This document shows positions 1-41,424 of a DNA stretch of 43,103 bases, piece by piece. How positions within the stretch are numbered: position 1 is the first letter of the stretch; every line of letters starts with the position of its first letter. A program made the translations under genes and the position numbers. The notes beneath the pieces were generated by a model. The model was not told where the DNA came from, made no database searches, and saw nothing but the letters and a program-made list of their open reading frames with translations. Source of the DNA: Chloroflexota bacterium (GTDB taxonomy: Bacteria > Chloroflexota > Dormibacteria > Dormibacterales > Dormibacteraceae); contig VBJR01000287.1 of NCBI GenBank assembly GCA_005880175.1, forward strand, positions 1 to 43,103. The letters run 5' to 3'.

Positions 1-45
1 CTTCGGGACGCGCTCCCTGCGCGCGTAACCCTTCCTGGTACCACG

Positions 46-125: not shown

Positions 126-668
126 TTGGAGCAGGAACGGCCCGGACAGCTGGGACACAGGCCAGCTGAGGTCGTAGAGCTGCCCGCCTCCACGGCTCCG
201 CCCGTGGACGTCGCCCTTGAGGAGCTCGAGTTCGTCTACGCGTACATCTTCGCGCGCGTCGGCAACCGCGCCGACGCCGAGGACCTCACCCAGCAGGTCG
301 CGCTGAAAGCCATCCCGCGGCTGCGCGAGGGCGCCAGCCAGGGGGCCATCCGCTCCTATCTCTTCGCGACTGCCCGGTCGGCCCTCGCGTCGTTCTGGTC
401 CGCGCGGTTCGGGCTGCCCGAGGAGGAGCTGCGCGAGGACACCTGGGTGGACAGCAACCAGCCCGAGCCGGCCGGCGAGTCGGTCGAGCGGGTGGAACGG
501 ATCCTGAGCCAGCTCCCCAGCAACTACCGCAAGCTGCTGGAGCTCCGCTTCCTGCGCGGCTACTCCCTGAAGGAGGTGGCGGCGGAGCTGGGCACGACGC
601 TGGGCGGTATCAAGGTGATGCAGCTGCGCGCCCTGCGCGCGGCGGCCAGGGTGGCGGGCAATGGGTGA
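126..668 (+). CDS. ECF-type RNA polymerase sigma factor
   Basis: A 180-residue sigma-70 family protein of extracytoplasmic-function type. Region 2 spans about residues 33-92 (AEDLTQQV-type helix, then the promoter-melting segment). Region 4 spans about residues 120-172, with the typical PSNYRKLLELRFLRGYSLKE helix-turn-helix. A 20-30 residue polar N-terminal tail precedes region 2. The start is TTG at 126 because AGGAGG (113-118) lies 7 nt upstream; no better start is visible. It overlaps the Rieske gene by 8 nt, so the two are translationally coupled. By family logic the co-transcribed membrane protein should control it, and it may drive its own operon. Family assignment is firm; target promoters are unknown. 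Confidence 0.9.
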   Translation: MEQERPGQLGHRPAEVVELPASTAPPVDVALEELEFVYAYIFARVGNRADAEDLTQQVALKAIPRLREGASQGAIRSYLFATARSALASFWSARFGLPEEELREDTWVDSNQPEPAGESVERVERILSQLPSNYRKLLELRFLRGYSLKEVAAELGTTLGGIKVMQLRALRAAARVAGNG

Positions 669-1386
669 GCGGGACGAGCGGAAGGCGGCCGAGCGCCTCG
701 ACCGGCTCGTCGGCGACGCCCTGGCCGGCCGCCACCTGAAGGCGACGCCGTCCGACGCCGCCGACCGCGAGGCGATCCAGGTCGCGGCCCGGCTGGCGGG
801 CGTCCGGGACGGCTACCCGCGCATGACGTCCGCGTTCCGGCGCCGGCTGACCGGCCTGCTGGAGCGGGGCGAGCCGCCGCGCGTGCTCAACCGGCGCGCC
901 GCGCTGGCCGCCGGCCTGGGCCTGGCCGCCGGCGCGGTCGGGGACGCCGTGGCGTCACCGCTGTCCGGTCAGCTGGAGGGCCTGGTGGCCGCCAGACGGG
1001 CGCCCGCGCCGGCGCCCTCGCCGCACGTCCAGTCCACGCCGAAACGGCCCACCATCGAGCCGCGTCCCGAGCTGAGCCGCTGGTGGGACACCGGGCTGCA
1101 CGTCGCCGACCTCGCCGACGGCATCCCTCACCGGGTGACCGCGGGCGCGATCGGCGCCTTCCTGGTGCGTCGCGGCGACACGGTGACCGGGATGTCGTCG
1201 GTCTGCACGCACTACCCGTGCGAGCTCATCTGGCAGGAGGACAAGAAGCTGCTCAACTGCCCGTGTCACAACCTCGCCTTCGACGTGGACGGACAGTCCA
1301 CGAAGGAGAACTACGCGCTCCCCGCGCTGCCGTACGTCAGGGTCCGGGTGAGCGCCGACGGCCGGGTAGAGGTGCTGGGCACGTGA
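661..1386 (+). CDS. Membrane-anchored Rieske protein with anti-sigma-like N-terminus
   Basis: 241 residues in three parts. Residues 1-75 are charged and helical, resembling the cytoplasmic head of anti-sigma proteins (inference by eye). Residues 78-98 are an Arg-Arg pair followed by a hydrophobic segment, either a membrane anchor or Tat-like signal. A Pro/Ala linker leads to a Rieske [2Fe-2S] domain, about residues 140-240. Cluster ligands are C182 and H184 (CTH) and C200 and H203 (CPCH). C187 and C202 match the disulfide pair of high-potential bc1/b6f Rieske proteins; the usual Gly-Ser after the second His is replaced by Asn-Leu. No cytochrome b or other bc1 subunit is nearby, and the gene overlaps the sigma factor by 8 nt. 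A redox-sensing regulator is therefore plausible; an ordinary electron carrier is the alternative. Confidence 0.8.
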   Translation: MGERDERKAAERLDRLVGDALAGRHLKATPSDAADREAIQVAARLAGVRDGYPRMTSAFRRRLTGLLERGEPPRVLNRRAALAAGLGLAAGAVGDAVASPLSGQLEGLVAARRAPAPAPSPHVQSTPKRPTIEPRPELSRWWDTGLHVADLADGIPHRVTAGAIGAFLVRRGDTVTGMSSVCTHYPCELIWQEDKKLLNCPCHNLAFDVDGQSTKENYALPALPYVRVRVSADGRVEVLGT

Positions 1387-1646
1387 TGAGTACACGGGGC
1401 GGCGTCGACCGGACCCGGATGCGAGCGCTCGACCGGTGCCTCCAGCTGCTCGAGGACGCGCTGGCCGACGGCAAGGTCCGGGTGGACGGACCGCTGGCGT
1501 TCCGCCTCCGGCACCTCCTCGGCGCGGGCGGCCTGATCCCCGACCACCGCCTGGAGGGCCGGCGGATCGACCGGGTGCTGGACGACATCTTCACCCTGCA
1601 GGCCCGGTTACTCGGCCAGGACGAAGAATCCGAGGTCGCCGGCTAA
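1386..1646 (+). CDS. Small hypothetical protein, third gene of sigma-Rieske operon
   Basis: 86 residues starting at the ATG that shares its A with the TGA stop of the Rieske gene, a coupled stop-start. The protein is hydrophilic, with no signal peptide or membrane segment. It looks mostly helical: an amphipathic helix near residues 10-30 (RMRALDRCLQLLEDALADGK) and a second near 60-78. I do not recognise the family. The tight coupling suggests it works with the sigma factor or the Rieske protein, for example as an accessory regulator, but no function can be assigned. Confidence 0.55.
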   Translation: MSTRGGVDRTRMRALDRCLQLLEDALADGKVRVDGPLAFRLRHLLGAGGLIPDHRLEGRRIDRVLDDIFTLQARLLGQDEESEVAG

Positions 1647-2202: not shown

Positions 2203-3093
2203 CTAGCCCCGCCACTGCCAGCGCGTCGCCGGGGACGAGCCGGACAGCGTGTTGCCCGGGTCCTCGAACTTGTCGTACGCGGAGTGCACGGACACGCGGC
2301 CGGGGCCGGTCAGGCGCAGCCAGACGAACCGCTCGCCCCAGGAGCGCCAGGACCGCCACGTGCCGGCCGGGTGCTCGAAGTGCAGGTGCATCTGGACCGT
2401 GGAGTCCTTGAACAGCAGGGCCGTCGGCTTGACCAGCAGCGTCTCGCCGGGCGCCAGCTGGCGGATGAACGCGTTGCCGTGGGCGTGCAGCAGGAGCAGG
2501 CCCGGCGCCCCCGGCGCCGAGAACCGGTCCATATACATGCCGAGCGGGTAGTGCGTCTCCGTCTCGTCGCCATCCCGGGTCTGGAACCACACGCCGGTGT
2601 TGAACCAGTCGTACCGCACCTGGTTCGTCGCGACCATGAAGATGTGCTCGCGGACGTCGATCGACATCCCCGCCTGGAGCGGAACCGGCACCAGCTCGCC
2701 CGGCGCGTCGCGAGAGAACGCCACGTGGCCCTGTCCGTACGCCTGGGTCATGAGCAGCGGCAGGCCCGCGAACAGCCGGCTCCAGCCGCCGCGCAGCGCC
2801 ATCGGGGCGATCGCGATGGCCGGGTCCTTCCAGAGCAGCAGGTGATGCGTGAAGTAGACGCCGTCCTCGCCGGACAGGTTGAAGTCCGCCACGGGCACGT
2901 ACGTGCCCTCGATCTGGCAGTAGGAACGGCCGAACTGCAGCCTGGCCATGTCCGGGATGGCGGGCAGCTCGTACCAGCCGGACTCGCTGACGCGGTCGCG
3001 GACGTCCACCGGCGCGCCGCAGGTGGGGCAGCTGATCAGGTTGGGGGCGTCGGTGCTCATCCGGCACCAGCGGCAGGTGTACGTGCCCGACAT
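2203..3093 (-). CDS. AIM24 family protein with N-terminal zinc ribbon (copy 1)
   Basis: 296 residues. The N-terminus has two Cys pairs (CRWC at about 7-10 and CPTC at about 22-25) that form a zinc ribbon. An AIM24/DUF124 beta-barrel follows at about residues 45-250, marked by the glycine-rich and FSRDAPGELVPVPL-type strands. Bacterial AIM24 proteins have no established molecular function; the mitochondrial namesake affects inner-membrane organisation. The gene begins 4 nt after the stop of a paralogous AIM24 gene, so the pair is a tandem duplication in one operon. The C-terminus has a Trp/Arg-rich insertion (HPAGTWRSWRSWGERFVWLR) absent from the sister copy. Start is ATG at 3093. Confidence 0.85.
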   Translation of the reverse strand: MSGTYTCRWCRMSTDAPNLISCPTCGAPVDVRDRVSESGWYELPAIPDMARLQFGRSYCQIEGTYVPVADFNLSGEDGVYFTHHLLLWKDPAIAIAPMALRGGWSRLFAGLPLLMTQAYGQGHVAFSRDAPGELVPVPLQAGMSIDVREHIFMVATNQVRYDWFNTGVWFQTRDGDETETHYPLGMYMDRFSAPGAPGLLLLHAHGNAFIRQLAPGETLLVKPTALLFKDSTVQMHLHFEHPAGTWRSWRSWGERFVWLRLTGPGRVSVHSAYDKFEDPGNTLSGSSPATRWQWRG

Positions 3094-3097
3094 GACG

Positions 3098-3910
3098 CTA
3101 ATCGTCCGTGTGGTGGTGGACGTACATCGACTGGATGCCGATGCGTCCCGGCCCCGTCATCTTGGCCAGGTTCATCCCGGTCCCGCCGAACAGGCCGCTG
3201 GACAGGCGCTGTGTCTCGACCTGCATGGTGACGGTCGCGTCCTTGTAGAGGAACGCGCCGGGCTCGAGCAGGATGCTCTCGCCAGGCTGCAGCATCCGCT
3301 CGAACACGTTGCCGTAGCCGTGCAGGACCAGCAGGCCCTGCTCGTTGCCGGCCACGAAGCGGTCCATGAACATGCCCTGGCCGCCGAACAGGATGTTCTT
3401 CAGGCCCTTGATGCGGACGTAGGAGTAGCCGATGCTGTGCGAGGCGAGCAGGAACGCGTGCTCGCGCACGTCCAGCTCGACGCCGGGGTGCAGGGGCAGC
3501 ACGACGAGCTCGCCGGTCGCGTCGCGCGAGAAGGCGATCCGGCCCGGCCCCTGGGCGACCGTGATGATGAACGGCATGCCGGCGAACGCCCGCTTGATGC
3601 CGCCGCCGAGCGGCATCACGGACATCGCCGCCGACTCGTCCTTCCAGAGCATCACGTGGTGCTCGAAGTACACCCAGTCGCCGGCCCCGAGCGCGATCTC
3701 CGCGACCGGGACGATCTCGCCCTCCACCTGGCAGGTGCTGCCGCCGAAGTGGATCTCGGTCATGTCGCGCAGGCGCGGCGCCTCGCGCCAGCCCGAGTCG
3801 CTGACCAGGTTCCTGACGTCGAGGGGAGCGCCGCACGTGTAGCAGCTCCTCGCGTCAGGCGAGTTCTGACTCCGGCACCACTGACATTCGACCCGCGTCC
3901 CCGTATCCAC
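3098..3910 (-). CDS. AIM24 family protein with N-terminal zinc ribbon (copy 2)
   Basis: 270 residues. The N-terminal CQWC...CYTC pairs (about residues 9-12 and 23-26) form a zinc ribbon, followed by an AIM24/DUF124 domain with the same strand pattern as the neighbouring copy (FSRDATGELVVLPLHPG, then GLLVLHGYGNVFERMLQPGE). The start is GTG at 3910, preceded by AGGAGGAAC on the minus strand. It lies 10 nt downstream of the molybdenum hydroxylase gene and 4 nt upstream of copy 1, so it belongs to that operon. Divergence between copies is substantial, so the duplication is probably old. Molecular function is unknown. Confidence 0.85.
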   Translation of the reverse strand: MDTGTRVECQWCRSQNSPDARSCYTCGAPLDVRNLVSDSGWREAPRLRDMTEIHFGGSTCQVEGEIVPVAEIALGAGDWVYFEHHVMLWKDESAAMSVMPLGGGIKRAFAGMPFIITVAQGPGRIAFSRDATGELVVLPLHPGVELDVREHAFLLASHSIGYSYVRIKGLKNILFGGQGMFMDRFVAGNEQGLLVLHGYGNVFERMLQPGESILLEPGAFLYKDATVTMQVETQRLSSGLFGGTGMNLAKMTGPGRIGIQSMYVHHHTDD

Positions 3911-3920
3911 CTGTTCCTCC

Positions 3921-6206
3921 TCAGTCCTGGTTGGCCCCGCGTTGCCGGATCGCCCGCCACAACTTCTCCGGTGTCAGCGGCATATCGACGTGCTCCACGC
4001 CGAGGTGGCCGAGCGCGTCGATCACCGCGTTGTGGACCGCGGGGGTCGAGCCGATCGTCCCGGACTCGCCGATCCCCTTCACGCCCAACGCGTTGAGGTG
4101 CGTCGGGGTGACGGTCCGGTCCGTTTCGAACTTCGGCAGCTCGTTCGCGGTGGGGAACGCGTAGTCGAGGAGGCTCGCCGTCCGCGGGTTGCCGTCCGCG
4201 TCGTAGACCATCTCCTCGAACAGCGCCTGGGCCACGCCCTGGGCGATGCCCCCGTGCTGCTGCCCCTCGGCCAGGAGCGGGTTGAGCACATTGCCGCAGT
4301 CGTCCACCGCCACGTGGCGGACGAGGCGCGCGTCGCCGGTCTCCGCGTCCACCTCGACCACCGCGACGTGGGCGCCGAACGGGAACGTCCGGCCCACCTG
4401 CTTGAAGTCGATCGCGGCCGTCAGCCGGGCCTCCCCCGCCCGCTCCGCGAGGTCGGCCCAGGAGAGCGCCGACGCGGGCACGCCGCGCACCCGGACGCCG
4501 CCGTCCGCCACCTCCAGGTCGCCGGGGTCCGCCTCCAGCTGCTCGGCCGCGAGCGTCCGGGCCTGGACCAGCACGTCGCGGCAGGCCAGCTCGATCGCCG
4601 CTCCGCCCATCTGCATCGAGCGCGACCCGACTGTCCCCTCGCCGCGCGGCACCCGGGCCGTGTCCGAGTGGACGACCTCGACCTGCTCCATCGGCACCTG
4701 GAAGCGCTCGGCCACGAGCTGCGCGTACGTCGTCTCGTGGCCCTGGCCATGGGAGGACGTCCCGGCCAGCACGAGCAGCCGACCGTCCGGCCGCACCTCG
4801 ACCGACCCGAACTCGACCGGGCTGCCGCCGCCGGTCACCTCGACGTAGACCGACACGCCGATGCCGAGGAGGCGCCGGTCGCCGCCGGCGCGGCGCTCGG
4901 CCTGCTCGCGCCGCAGCGCTTCGTAGTCGGCGAGCTCCAGCGCCCGGTCCAGCGACTTCGCGTACTCGCCGCTGTCGTAGTCGGCGCCGGCGCTCGTCTT
5001 CAGCGGGAACGCGTCCGGCGGGATGAGGTTGCGCCGGCGCAGCTCGACGGGGTCCATGCCCAGCCGGCGCGCCAGCAGGTCCATCGCGCGCTCGATCAGC
5101 GACGCCGCCTCCGGTCGGCCGGCGCCGCGGTACGCGGAGATCGGGGTCGTGTTCGTCACCACGCTGTCGGCCTGGTAGTCGATGCGCGGGATGGCGTAGA
5201 CGCCGGACAGCATCATGCCGGTGAACGTGGGCAGCCAGGCCCCGAGGCCCGGGTAGGCGCCGGCGTCGGCCAGCAGACGCACGCGCAGGCCGGTCAGCTT
5301 GCCGTCGGCCCCGGCCGCCAGCTCCAGCTCCTGGACCTGGCCCCGGCCCTGGACCATGTTCACGATGTTCTCGCTGCGGGTCTCCGCCCAGCGGACGGGC
5401 CGGCGCAGGCGCGAGGCCAGCAGGCCCACGATCACCTGCTCGGGGTACACGTGCATCTTCGCCCCGAAGCCGCCGCCCACGTCGGGGGCGATCACCCGGA
5501 CCTGGGAGCGCTCCAGCCCGGCCGCCGCCGCGACGGCGTCGCGGACCCGGAACGGCCCCTGGCTGGACGCCCACACCTGGAGCCCGCCGGTCTCCTCGTC
5601 GGGCGCCGCCACCAGCGCGTTGGGCTCCATCGGCACCGGCGCCAGGCGCTGGTTGACGAACCGGAGCCGCACCACGTGGTCGGCGCCGTCCAGCGCGTCA
5701 CCGGCGCCGTACGCGACGCGGTAGCAGCGGTTGGTGCCGGCGTCCGGGTACAGGAGGACGGAGTCGCGGGCCGCGGCGTCGAGGTCCACCACCGCGTCCA
5801 GCGGCTCGTAGTCCACGAGCACCGCCTCGGCCCCGTCGGCCGCCTGGCCGCGCGTCTCCGCGACCACCACCGCCACCGCCTCGCCGACGTAGCGCACGAC
5901 GTCGCGAGCCAGGTACGGGCGCACGAACGGGTCGGGGACGCCGGGGAAGCCCTTGACCGGCCGGAGGCCGAGGTCCGCGTCCGTGAACACGCCGGCGACG
6001 CCGGGCACGGCCGCGGCCGCGCTCGTGTCGATGCCCGCGATCCGGGCGTGCGCGAACGGCGAGCGCACGAAGACCGCGACCAGGCCGCCCTCGGTGGGCA
6101 CGTCGTCCACGTAGCGGCCGTGGCCGCTGACCAGCCGCGGGTCCTCGCGCCGGCGCACCGGGTTGCCGAGGACCGAGCCCCGGCCGAGGCCCATGGCGCT
6201 GCTCAC
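3921..6206 (-). CDS. Xanthine dehydrogenase-family molybdopterin-binding (large) subunit
   Basis: 761 residues, full length for the large subunit of molybdenum hydroxylases. Residues 1-135 form the N-terminal a/b hammerhead; the rest is the molybdopterin-binding part. Visible motifs are DVGGGFGAK (242-250, cofactor loop), AYRGAGRPEA (358-367) and GVKGIGESG (708-716, with E714 as the expected catalytic Glu). The AYRGAGR loop replaces the Cys-containing AYxCSFR loop of true CO dehydrogenase, so this is a form II/CoxL-like hydroxylase of unknown substrate. No FAD-binding or [2Fe-2S] subunit is encoded nearby, so partners must come from elsewhere. GTG start overlaps the stop of the lyase gene by 4 nt. 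Confidence 0.9.
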   Translation of the reverse strand: MSSAMGLGRGSVLGNPVRRREDPRLVSGHGRYVDDVPTEGGLVAVFVRSPFAHARIAGIDTSAAAAVPGVAGVFTDADLGLRPVKGFPGVPDPFVRPYLARDVVRYVGEAVAVVVAETRGQAADGAEAVLVDYEPLDAVVDLDAAARDSVLLYPDAGTNRCYRVAYGAGDALDGADHVVRLRFVNQRLAPVPMEPNALVAAPDEETGGLQVWASSQGPFRVRDAVAAAAGLERSQVRVIAPDVGGGFGAKMHVYPEQVIVGLLASRLRRPVRWAETRSENIVNMVQGRGQVQELELAAGADGKLTGLRVRLLADAGAYPGLGAWLPTFTGMMLSGVYAIPRIDYQADSVVTNTTPISAYRGAGRPEAASLIERAMDLLARRLGMDPVELRRRNLIPPDAFPLKTSAGADYDSGEYAKSLDRALELADYEALRREQAERRAGGDRRLLGIGVSVYVEVTGGGSPVEFGSVEVRPDGRLLVLAGTSSHGQGHETTYAQLVAERFQVPMEQVEVVHSDTARVPRGEGTVGSRSMQMGGAAIELACRDVLVQARTLAAEQLEADPGDLEVADGGVRVRGVPASALSWADLAERAGEARLTAAIDFKQVGRTFPFGAHVAVVEVDAETGDARLVRHVAVDDCGNVLNPLLAEGQQHGGIAQGVAQALFEEMVYDADGNPRTASLLDYAFPTANELPKFETDRTVTPTHLNALGVKGIGESGTIGSTPAVHNAVIDALGHLGVEHVDMPLTPEKLWRAIRQRGANQD

Positions 6207-40171: not shown

Positions 40172-41424
40172 GCCACGATCGCCTGCGCTTTGGTCTGCGC
40201 GGTGTCCTGGGTGGCCTTGATGTTCCCGTTGAAGATCGCGTCGTGGATCATCGTGGCCCACGGCCCGTTGTTGTCGTTGATCAGCGCGTTCTCGACCGTC
40301 GAGTCCACGGTGTGGCCCTGCTGCAGCGCCTGGATGAAGATGGAGTAGGCGGGGTTGAGCGGCGTGTAGATCGTCGGCGCCAGGTCCAGCCGGACCGGCA
40401 TCACCCCCAGCTTGGCCATCGTCTGCTGCGCGGTCATGTCCGTCGCCCACTGCACGAACGTCCACGCGGCGTCCGGGTTCTTCGTGTCGCTGCCGACCGA
40501 GATCTCGTCCCCGCCCGCGAACGAGCTGTACCCGCCGGTCTTGCCCGGGATCGGGAACACGCCCCAGTCGAACGTCTTCGAGCTCTCCAGCTGCGGGATG
40601 AAGAACGCGCCGGCGGGACACATCCCGACGGTCCCGCCCTGGAACGCGGTCAGCGAGTTGGACGTGGTGTCGGTGCTGGCGGACGGCGGGATCACTCCCT
40701 CCTGCGCCATGCTGTGCATGAACGTCAGCATGTCGGTCACGGCCGGGCTGTTGAACATGGGCACAGACTGGCCCGGCGTCCCGCCGACGACCTCGCCGCC
40801 GCTGGCCCAGACGAACGGGGCCAGCTCGAAGATGCTGGCGCCGCCGTTGGCGCCCGGCCACACGTACCCGTACGTGTTACCACCCAGCGCCCGGATCTTG
40901 ACCGCCGCCGCCTCCAGCTCGGCCCATGTGGTGGGTGGCTTCGCGGGATCGAGCCCCGCCCGCTGGAACAGCGTCTTGTTGTAGAAGACGACCGACGACT
41001 CGGCCGTGAACGGCAGCGCGTACATCTTGCCGTTGTAGTTGGCGAGCCGCATGTGGGCGGAGTCGAAGCCGGACAGGTAGGACAGGGCCTTCGCCTTGCT
41101 CGTGATGTCCCTCAGCGCTCCGGTCTTGGCGAAGTAGGGCACGAAGACCAGGTCGATCGACACGACGTCGGGACCTGACCCGTTGGCGGTCGCCGTTCCC
41201 AGCTTCTGCACGAACGGGTCGTTGGCCGGGATGATCGTCACGTTCACGTGGATGTTCTTGTGGGACTGGTTGAACTGGTCCACGATCTGCCCGATGAACG
41301 TCTTCTCGCTGTCACGCGCCCACAGCGTCAGCGTCGTGGTCCCGGACGAGCCGCCGCCGCTGCCGCTGCATGCCCCCGCCAGCAGCACCGCTGCCAGCAT
41401 CGCTCCCAGACTCCTGGCCTTCAT
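40162..41424 (-). CDS. ABC transporter sugar-binding lipoprotein, second transporter
   Basis: 420 residues. A Sec signal with lipobox LLAGAC (Cys19) makes it a lipoprotein, followed by a Ser/Gly spacer. The mature family-1 solute-binding fold shows LTLWARDSEKTFIGQIVDQF, then MYALPFTAESSVVFYNKTLF and GAFFIPQLESSKTFDWGVFP. ATG 41424 is preceded by GAGGGAGAGAG, which overlaps the stop of the GH127 gene. Its paralog at 27998 is a Tat substrate, while this one uses Sec. Ligand is probably beta-arabino-oligosaccharide, judging from the GH127 neighbour. Confidence 0.9.
   Translation of the reverse strand: MKARSLGAMLAAVLLAGACSGSGGGSSGTTTLTLWARDSEKTFIGQIVDQFNQSHKNIHVNVTIIPANDPFVQKLGTATANGSGPDVVSIDLVFVPYFAKTGALRDITSKAKALSYLSGFDSAHMRLANYNGKMYALPFTAESSVVFYNKTLFQRAGLDPAKPPTTWAELEAAAVKIRALGGNTYGYVWPGANGGASIFELAPFVWASGGEVVGGTPGQSVPMFNSPAVTDMLTFMHSMAQEGVIPPSASTDTTSNSLTAFQGGTVGMCPAGAFFIPQLESSKTFDWGVFPIPGKTGGYSSFAGGDEISVGSDTKNPDAAWTFVQWATDMTAQQTMAKLGVMPVRLDLAPTIYTPLNPAYSIFIQALQQGHTVDSTVENALINDNNGPWATMIHDAIFNGNIKATQDTAQTKAQAIVAAG

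Follow-up and report, generated by a model that had tools for sequence, protein, structure and literature searches.

Known sigma/anti-sigma pairs and Rieske proteins

Rieske proteins are known as electron carriers and as parts of oxygenases. Anti-sigma factors, among them the membrane-bound class I proteins RseA, RskA and RsiW and the zinc types ChrR and RsrA, carry an N-terminal head that binds the sigma factor, often followed by a membrane segment and an outer domain, and are encoded near the sigma gene. Class I anti-sigma domains have four helices (PMC7406223), three of them bundled and the fourth separate, and the redox-sensing RsrA is a cytoplasmic zinc protein (PMC4960319). In the BldN-RsbN pair of Streptomyces, RsbN is a membrane-anchored anti-sigma factor with a class III domain, ASDIII (PMC8103513), and is encoded adjoining its sigma gene (PMC4255298).

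Here we describe a locus at the start of a 43,103-nucleotide stretch of DNA from a Chloroflexota bacterium (contig VBJR01000287.1, hereafter the window), in which an ECF-type sigma factor is encoded together with a membrane Rieske protein that we propose to be its anti-sigma factor (Table 1). The closest solved chain to the sigma factor by sequence is BldN (6dxo_A, E 8e-12), and its top NCBIfam hit is the BldN-family model, at a score far below that model's cut-off. Like RsbN, the Rieske protein has a short, helical head before one membrane segment, but the head gave no match to RsbN by sequence, and the consulted portions of PMC8103513 and PMC4255298 describe RsbN with no mention of a Rieske domain. 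The predicted layout of the Rieske protein, a head, a membrane segment and an outer domain encoded beside a sigma gene, resembles in outline that of RseA, RskA, RsiW, ChrR and RsrA, in which the membrane segment is often present. In contrast to the class I domain, the head is predicted to have three helices, and, unlike the zinc-type heads of ChrR and RsrA, it contains no cysteine in residues 1-77 and so no H-x3-C-x2-C zinc motif. Where RsrA works in the cytoplasm, the protein described here is a predicted outer [2Fe-2S] protein.

Table 1. Features of the sigma-Rieske locus in the window, and sigma-like fusion proteins at related loci
Feature	Position	Strand	Remarks
Two-part cis-element GTAACC-N6-GGTA	25..40	+	about 100 nt upstream of the sigma start
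ECF-type sigma factor, 180 aa	126..668	+	TTG start as listed (unproven); Sigma70_r2 and r4 over cut-off
Membrane Rieske protein, 241 aa, proposed anti-sigma factor	661..1386	+	ATG start
Three-helix head, residues 1-77, proposed cytosolic sigma-binding domain	661..891	+	from the model and head comparisons
RR (residues 78-79) and hydrophobic segment, proposed Tat signal anchor / transmembrane helix	892..960	+	
Rieske [2Fe-2S] domain, residues 146-241	1096..1383	+	
Conserved partner gene, 86 aa, function unassigned	1386..1646	+	seen in family 1
Sigma-like protein with C-terminal head-like domain	L060:6528-7631	-	beside a second sigma-Rieske pair
Sigma-like protein with C-terminal head-like domain	L062:4518-5249	+	beside a second sigma-Rieske pair
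Sigma-like protein with C-terminal head-like domain	L063:6183-7157	-	beside a second sigma-Rieske pair

The three-gene locus

The sigma factor matches regions 2 and 4 over the Pfam cut-offs (30 bits for r2, 41.7 bits for r4_2) with no match to region 3, a domain content that places it among the ECF sigma factors. The initial annotation, made from the letters of this DNA, had described an 8-nt overlap of the sigma and Rieske genes, a coupled third small gene and a lack of bc1 subunits nearby. All three descriptions hold, as the first two genes share positions 661-668, the ATG of the third overlaps the stop codon of the Rieske gene, and cytochrome b has no match anywhere in the window. Pfam found nothing in the window operon beyond the sigma regions and the Rieske domain. 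The 86-aa product has no family match in Pfam or NCBIfam; its own family shows 33 invariant columns among 26 aligned sequences (L021 and L025 left out).

Since it is conserved in related genomes, the three-gene arrangement is not due to chance. A scan of GTDB species genomes gave 28 loci of the family to which the window belongs (family 1), from metagenome-assembled genomes whose records are titled Dormibacterota, Chloroflexi or, in one case, Bacillota. The sigma gene lies upstream in 27 of the 28 and the 86-aa gene downstream in 27 of the 28; both exceptions, L018 and L023, lie at contig ends, and the sigma-less locus begins at one. The Rieske start codon and the 3' end of the sigma gene overlap in 26 of 27 loci, with no overlap found for L028. 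A frame for S-adenosylmethionine synthetase (metK; one member checked with Pfam) follows the 86-aa gene by about 46-650 nt in 26/28 loci, in several of them by 46-70 nt, and is absent downstream in L002, in L023 (contig end) and in the window. Co-transcription of metK with the operon is possible.

The Rieske protein

PF00355 matches residues 146-215 of the Rieske protein. A protein search gave 164 homologues, and 110 of the 120 listed were aligned together with the window protein (n = 111). All 111 match the Rieske domain; C182, C187, C200, C202 and H203 do not vary and H184 occurs in at least 90%, in keeping with the initial assignment of C182/H184 and C200/H203 as ligands and of C187/C202 as an extra pair. 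Two cysteine and two histidine ligands with a disulphide pair are those of the bc1/b6f type, the cluster and the disulphide being deduced from these residues. In the whole-protein model (pLDDT 79.6, pTM 0.53), head helices are predicted at residues 3-21, 30-50 and 57-68 and the Rieske domain from about residue 140, and the hydrophobic segment 85-105 is modelled at a pLDDT below 50. The PDB matches shown for the model are Rieske proteins, spanning residues 132-241. The Rieske domain itself is ordinary by sequence and fold. The helical N-terminus and single hydrophobic segment of the initial annotation are both recovered, and the head is well conserved across the 111 homologues.

Arginines 78 and 79 are present in 111/111 aligned family-1 proteins, ahead of the single hydrophobic stretch, and by a looser test (RR anywhere within residues 50-175) the pair occurs in 112/112, 119/119 and 42/43 proteins. 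This RR motif is a feature that the initial annotation did not mention. The order of head, RR, hydrophobic stretch and Rieske domain is conserved among the homologues, and the RR with its hydrophobic stretch resembles a Tat signal anchor. The Tat pathway moves proteins in folded form, and an RR segment joined to a Rieske cargo points to Tat export of a folded, cluster-loaded domain. The protein shares its fold, ligands, disulphide pair and RR ahead of a hydrophobic segment with QcrA and PetC of the bc1 and b6f complexes, but differs from them in lacking cytochrome b nearby, in its extra conserved head and in its linkage to a sigma gene.

Loss of the serine and tyrosine that hydrogen-bond the cluster was considered as a sign of a tuned sensor and dropped. 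It says nothing special, because these residues are mostly lost in head-less controls too, which keep the serine in 2/16 and the tyrosine in 1/16 of the sequences read.

Linkage to the sigma gene

The gene order of the pair recurs well beyond the close relatives of the window. In 400 genomes of one phylum (that of genome G001, taken as Chloroflexota), 144 matched a profile of the whole protein, many of them through plain Rieske proteins. Sixty of the listed places were fetched, 40 in which the match starts before about profile position 78 and 20 in which it covers the Rieske part only. All 40 of the former, here called the divergent loci, have a head-like N-terminus by eye and are preceded, in the same orientation, by a sigma gene belonging to the same family. 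Among the latter, 17 are head-less by eye and three bear a head; a sigma gene is found at all three head-bearing loci and at none of the 17 head-less loci within the 3.8-5.3 kb fetched for each. It also lies upstream in 5/5 paralogous loci. Linkage to the sigma gene follows the head, not the Rieske domain.

A further pair, annotated as a sigma factor and a Rieske protein, is carried by an actinobacterial plasmid of Mycobacteroides abscessus (NC_021278.1; L064:7456-8702), where a cupredoxin gene comes next and a molybdopterin oxidoreductase gene lies two genes upstream of the sigma gene. In a FastTree phylogeny of 102 sigma factors, the 75 linked to Rieske proteins split completely (support 1.0) from 27 linked to membrane proteins with a DUF5667 domain, to which we return below. 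Co-divergence of the sigma factor with the head (r 0.865; 67 pairs, L117 skipped) had been considered as proof of contact between the two and was dropped, as the correlation with the Rieske domain is as high or higher (r 0.916).

Relatives of the head

Profile comparisons (hhalign) connect the head to other proteins associated with sigma factors. The heads of family 1 match those of a second family (97.3%, E 1.9e-11), and family-2 heads match the C-terminal domain of the sigma-like fusion proteins in Table 1 (99.0%, E 3.5e-18), for which the database gave 223 matches, 117 of them aligned; column-shuffled controls gave E 0.04 or worse. Compared directly, the family-1 and fusion heads match weakly (3.8%, E 0.011). 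The heads of the divergent loci match family 1, family 2 and the fusion at 96.8, 98.9 and 96.1%, respectively. The best model of the natural fusion reached a pLDDT of 87.8 and a pTM of 0.85, and two of the five models were poor (mean pLDDT 71.2 and 62.3). Its PDB matches are weak and cover the sigma part only (residues 4-160), and among them sigma factors bound to RNA polymerase rank level with those bound to anti-sigma factors.

The head thus belongs to a family whose members are encoded next to ECF sigma genes or joined to a sigma-like protein. The initial annotation had proposed that the Rieske protein is an anti-sigma factor, and this family membership bears out part of that proposal. Against the proposal stands, so far, one of the observations that the initial annotation had itself named as adverse: the head profiles found no credible match to a known anti-sigma domain, RsbN included, among Pfam and PDB sequences, and none of the 111 aligned proteins has a credible Pfam match in the head. 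The structure searches matched the Rieske part or fusion residues 4-160 only.

DUF5667 occurs in 90 of 151 genomes of the same phylum, and a sigma gene is present in the fetched stretch of 24/26 DUF5667 loci examined and in 27 of all 30. These membrane proteins therefore share with the Rieske proteins a sigma gene close by; they differ in having DUF5667, not Rieske, as the outer domain, and their sigma factors form the separate group noted above. Of 25 extracted N-termini, 14 were picked by eye as head-like, a choice that favours a match, and these resemble the divergent heads distantly (73.4%, E 3e-5, with eight shuffles at 0.31 or worse), family 1 less closely (40.7%, E 2.9e-4) and family 2 weakly (10.8%, E 0.0028). 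Their kinship to the head is a lead. An equation of DUF5667 with the head was dropped, since DUF5667 is the outer domain and only some N-termini of these proteins are head-like.

A two-part element upstream of the operon

Of the 28 family-1 sigma genes examined, with the window counted, 26 are preceded by GTAACC (27 occurrences seen against 1.6 expected). It is missing at L004, for which 60 nt upstream were available, and at L017, for which there were 421 nt. A GTA follows at constant distance in 26/26 carriers. Across operons the general form of the element is GTAAC-N7-[C/G]GTA, and the looser GTAAC-N6-8-GTA occurs in 46 of 49 other Rieske-linked operons (0.36 expected); it is missing from L119, from L137, where 68 nt were examined, and from the actinobacterial L064. 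The loose element preceded by T or C was found before none of 26 DUF5667-linked sigma genes (one more has no upstream sequence) and nowhere in 175,030 bases, both strands counted, of the head-less loci.

The two halves resemble the -35 (AAC) and -10 (CGT) elements of ECF promoters. The usual spacer of an ECF promoter is longer than the approximately 7 nt between the halves here. Because ECF-like halves stand only this far apart, the element may be either a promoter or an operator, and a promoter role is the one we assume below. No Rfam match to an RNA element was found in four loci.

Two perfect inverted repeats lie between the element and the sigma gene of the window, at 46-75 and 80-106 (arms of 13 and 9 nt). 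A second copy of the element, at 40865-40880, was dropped as a further regulated site, as it sits inside a coding frame.

Candidate target genes

The strict pattern TGTAACC-N6-CGTA has 50 sites in 16 genomes, chosen because their own operon carries the element; 16 of these are the operons, and the 34 non-operon sites compare with 31 sites of the reversed pattern, so that non-operon strict sites are no more numerous than background. What follows the sites does differ. Of 29 element sites viewed, ten were operons, and among the other 19 there were 13 with a downstream frame of at least 100 codons, against 10 of 29 reversed-pattern sites. By a crude rule, exported-looking proteins follow 11/19 non-operon sites and 1/29 reversed-pattern sites.

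Pfam was run on ten target candidates. Lipoprotein_15 genes lie behind non-operon sites at L230, L235, L240, L242, L244 and L246, with L242 and L244 assigned by likeness and L230, L242 and L244 seemingly three close relatives and hence non-independent. Other genes in this position encode cupredoxins (L229, L237), NHL-repeat proteins (L219, L232), a ferritin-like Tat-type protein (L225) and a PKD protein (L221). Approached from the other side, 21 distinct Lipoprotein_15 frames were found and 18 analysed, with the loose element upstream of 12 and the strict one upstream of eight, where about 0.1 would be expected by chance (rate from the 49-operon count). For two of the misses the available sequence is shorter than 160 nt, and L291 was scored as one despite a strict site further upstream. 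At L240 (genome G149, contig C3, positions 536246 and 536287), two opposed copies of the element stand between a sigma operon and a divergent Lipoprotein_15 gene, as expected if the two were under shared control.

In ten Dormibacteria genomes the family-1 form gave 31 sites (ten of them operons) against 36 for the control, and targets predicted there by the strict pattern were dropped, the counts being at background level. In the window no target gene is known.

Proposed mechanism and alternative explanations

The anti-sigma pattern fits the locus because the head tracks the sigma gene and occurs fused to a sigma-like protein, and because the operon carries a pair-specific element that also precedes genes for exported proteins. 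In the mechanism we propose, the three-helix head would keep the sigma factor bound on the cytoplasmic side of the membrane, and the folded, cluster-bearing Rieske domain would cross the membrane via Tat and stay anchored outside. A change in the state of the cluster or the disulphide, whether oxidation, loss, or failed assembly or export, would be the trigger on which the head frees the sigma factor, directly or through proteolysis. The freed sigma factor would then drive its own operon along with a limited number of genes that carry the general form of the element, many of which encode exported proteins, some from electron-transfer or metal-binding families. We infer the sensor role of the cluster from the order of the domains and from the exported redox-type proteins encoded behind the motif.

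That the two proteins form a sigma/anti-sigma pair of some kind, answering to a redox or an assembly signal, seems to us likely, and the full statement, in which a Tat-exported outer cluster domain signals its state, is more probable than not. Within the broader claim, the Rieske domain of the anti-sigma factor could sense assembly, not redox: apo-protein would stay unexported by Tat, and the head-sigma complex would report on iron-sulphur supply, on the capacity of Tat, or on a metal or oxidant able to destroy the cluster. The RR of every aligned family-1 protein, the link between Rieske subunits and Tat made in the consulted parts of the literature, and the cupredoxins and ferritin-like protein behind the element all agree with this, but the ligands are conserved whichever reading is taken and nothing found separates assembly from redox sensing; we consider it unlikely, with some real chance of being right. 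It is improbable, in our view, that the Rieske protein is instead an effector in electron transfer, with the sigma factor transcribing its own operon and the head serving to tether or assemble the Rieske domain. The ordinary sequence and fold of that domain, the electron-transfer-type proteins also encoded behind the element, the second, plain Rieske gene downstream at L060, L062 and L063, and a co-divergence with the sigma factor at least equal to that of the head would all suit an effector. Such a role accounts poorly for related heads fused to a sigma-like protein, for the resemblance of the heads to N-termini of other sigma-adjacent membrane proteins, and for the 17 head-less Rieske loci, none of which has a sigma gene.

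Many homologues are annotated in their source records as the cytochrome b6-f iron-sulphur subunit, and the ligands and disulphide pair are of that type, so that a bc1/b6f subunit standing beside a sigma gene by accident has also to be weighed. The initial annotation had named homologues occurring mainly inside bc1 operons as an observation that would count against its reading; a cytochrome b frame (one member of this sequence cluster checked with Pfam) is found at 15 of the 17 head-less loci and at none of 78 head-bearing ones (77 and the window). With the Cytb6f PetC model the protein reaches 31.5 bits, where the cut-off is 250, and the sigma-Rieske pairing holds at every divergent locus. Pairing and cytochrome b counts refute the accident as a general explanation, and we regard it as scarcely credible.

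Returning to the sigma/anti-sigma reading, its most far-reaching form is a widespread transmembrane redox switch, in which a [2Fe-2S] Rieske cluster displayed outside the cell by Tat controls an ECF sigma lineage of its own by way of a head that differs from the described anti-sigma classes, and this lineage reads an unusually tight element before the operon and before exported cupredoxin, Lipoprotein_15 and ferritin-like genes; this we put forward tentatively, as a near-even call that leans towards doubt. The pairing of sigma and anti-sigma factors is already known, and this one departs from it in its Rieske domain, its family of heads and the closeness of its half-sites. Among the papers listed by literature searches, none describes a Rieske anti-sigma factor as judged by title and beginning of abstract. 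If the proposal is true, Rieske proteins have been recruited as outer sensors for sigma factors in one large bacterial group and on at least one actinobacterial plasmid. A function would be found for the many proteins that currently bear the label of cytochrome b6-f subunit, and a poorly studied phylum would gain a set of testable target genes. It could also be asked whether exporting a folded iron-sulphur protein through Tat serves at the same time as a signal. The tight element would allow a test of how an ECF sigma factor reads half-sites closer than usual.

Neighbouring features of the window

Just past the third gene, at 1656-2173, a pair of 111-nt inverted repeats (85% complementary, 296 nt apart) encloses a pair of GTTGAAGT..ACTTCAAC palindromes and looks like a small mobile or repeat element; the exact GTTGAAGT..ACTTCAAC pattern was not found in 308 fetched loci. 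Beyond it, two adjacent AIM24-domain proteins with zinc-ribbon-like N-termini (below the Pfam cut-off) are encoded at 2203-3093 and 3098-3910 (-), and this pair adjoins the gene for a molybdopterin-dependent large subunit (3921-6206).
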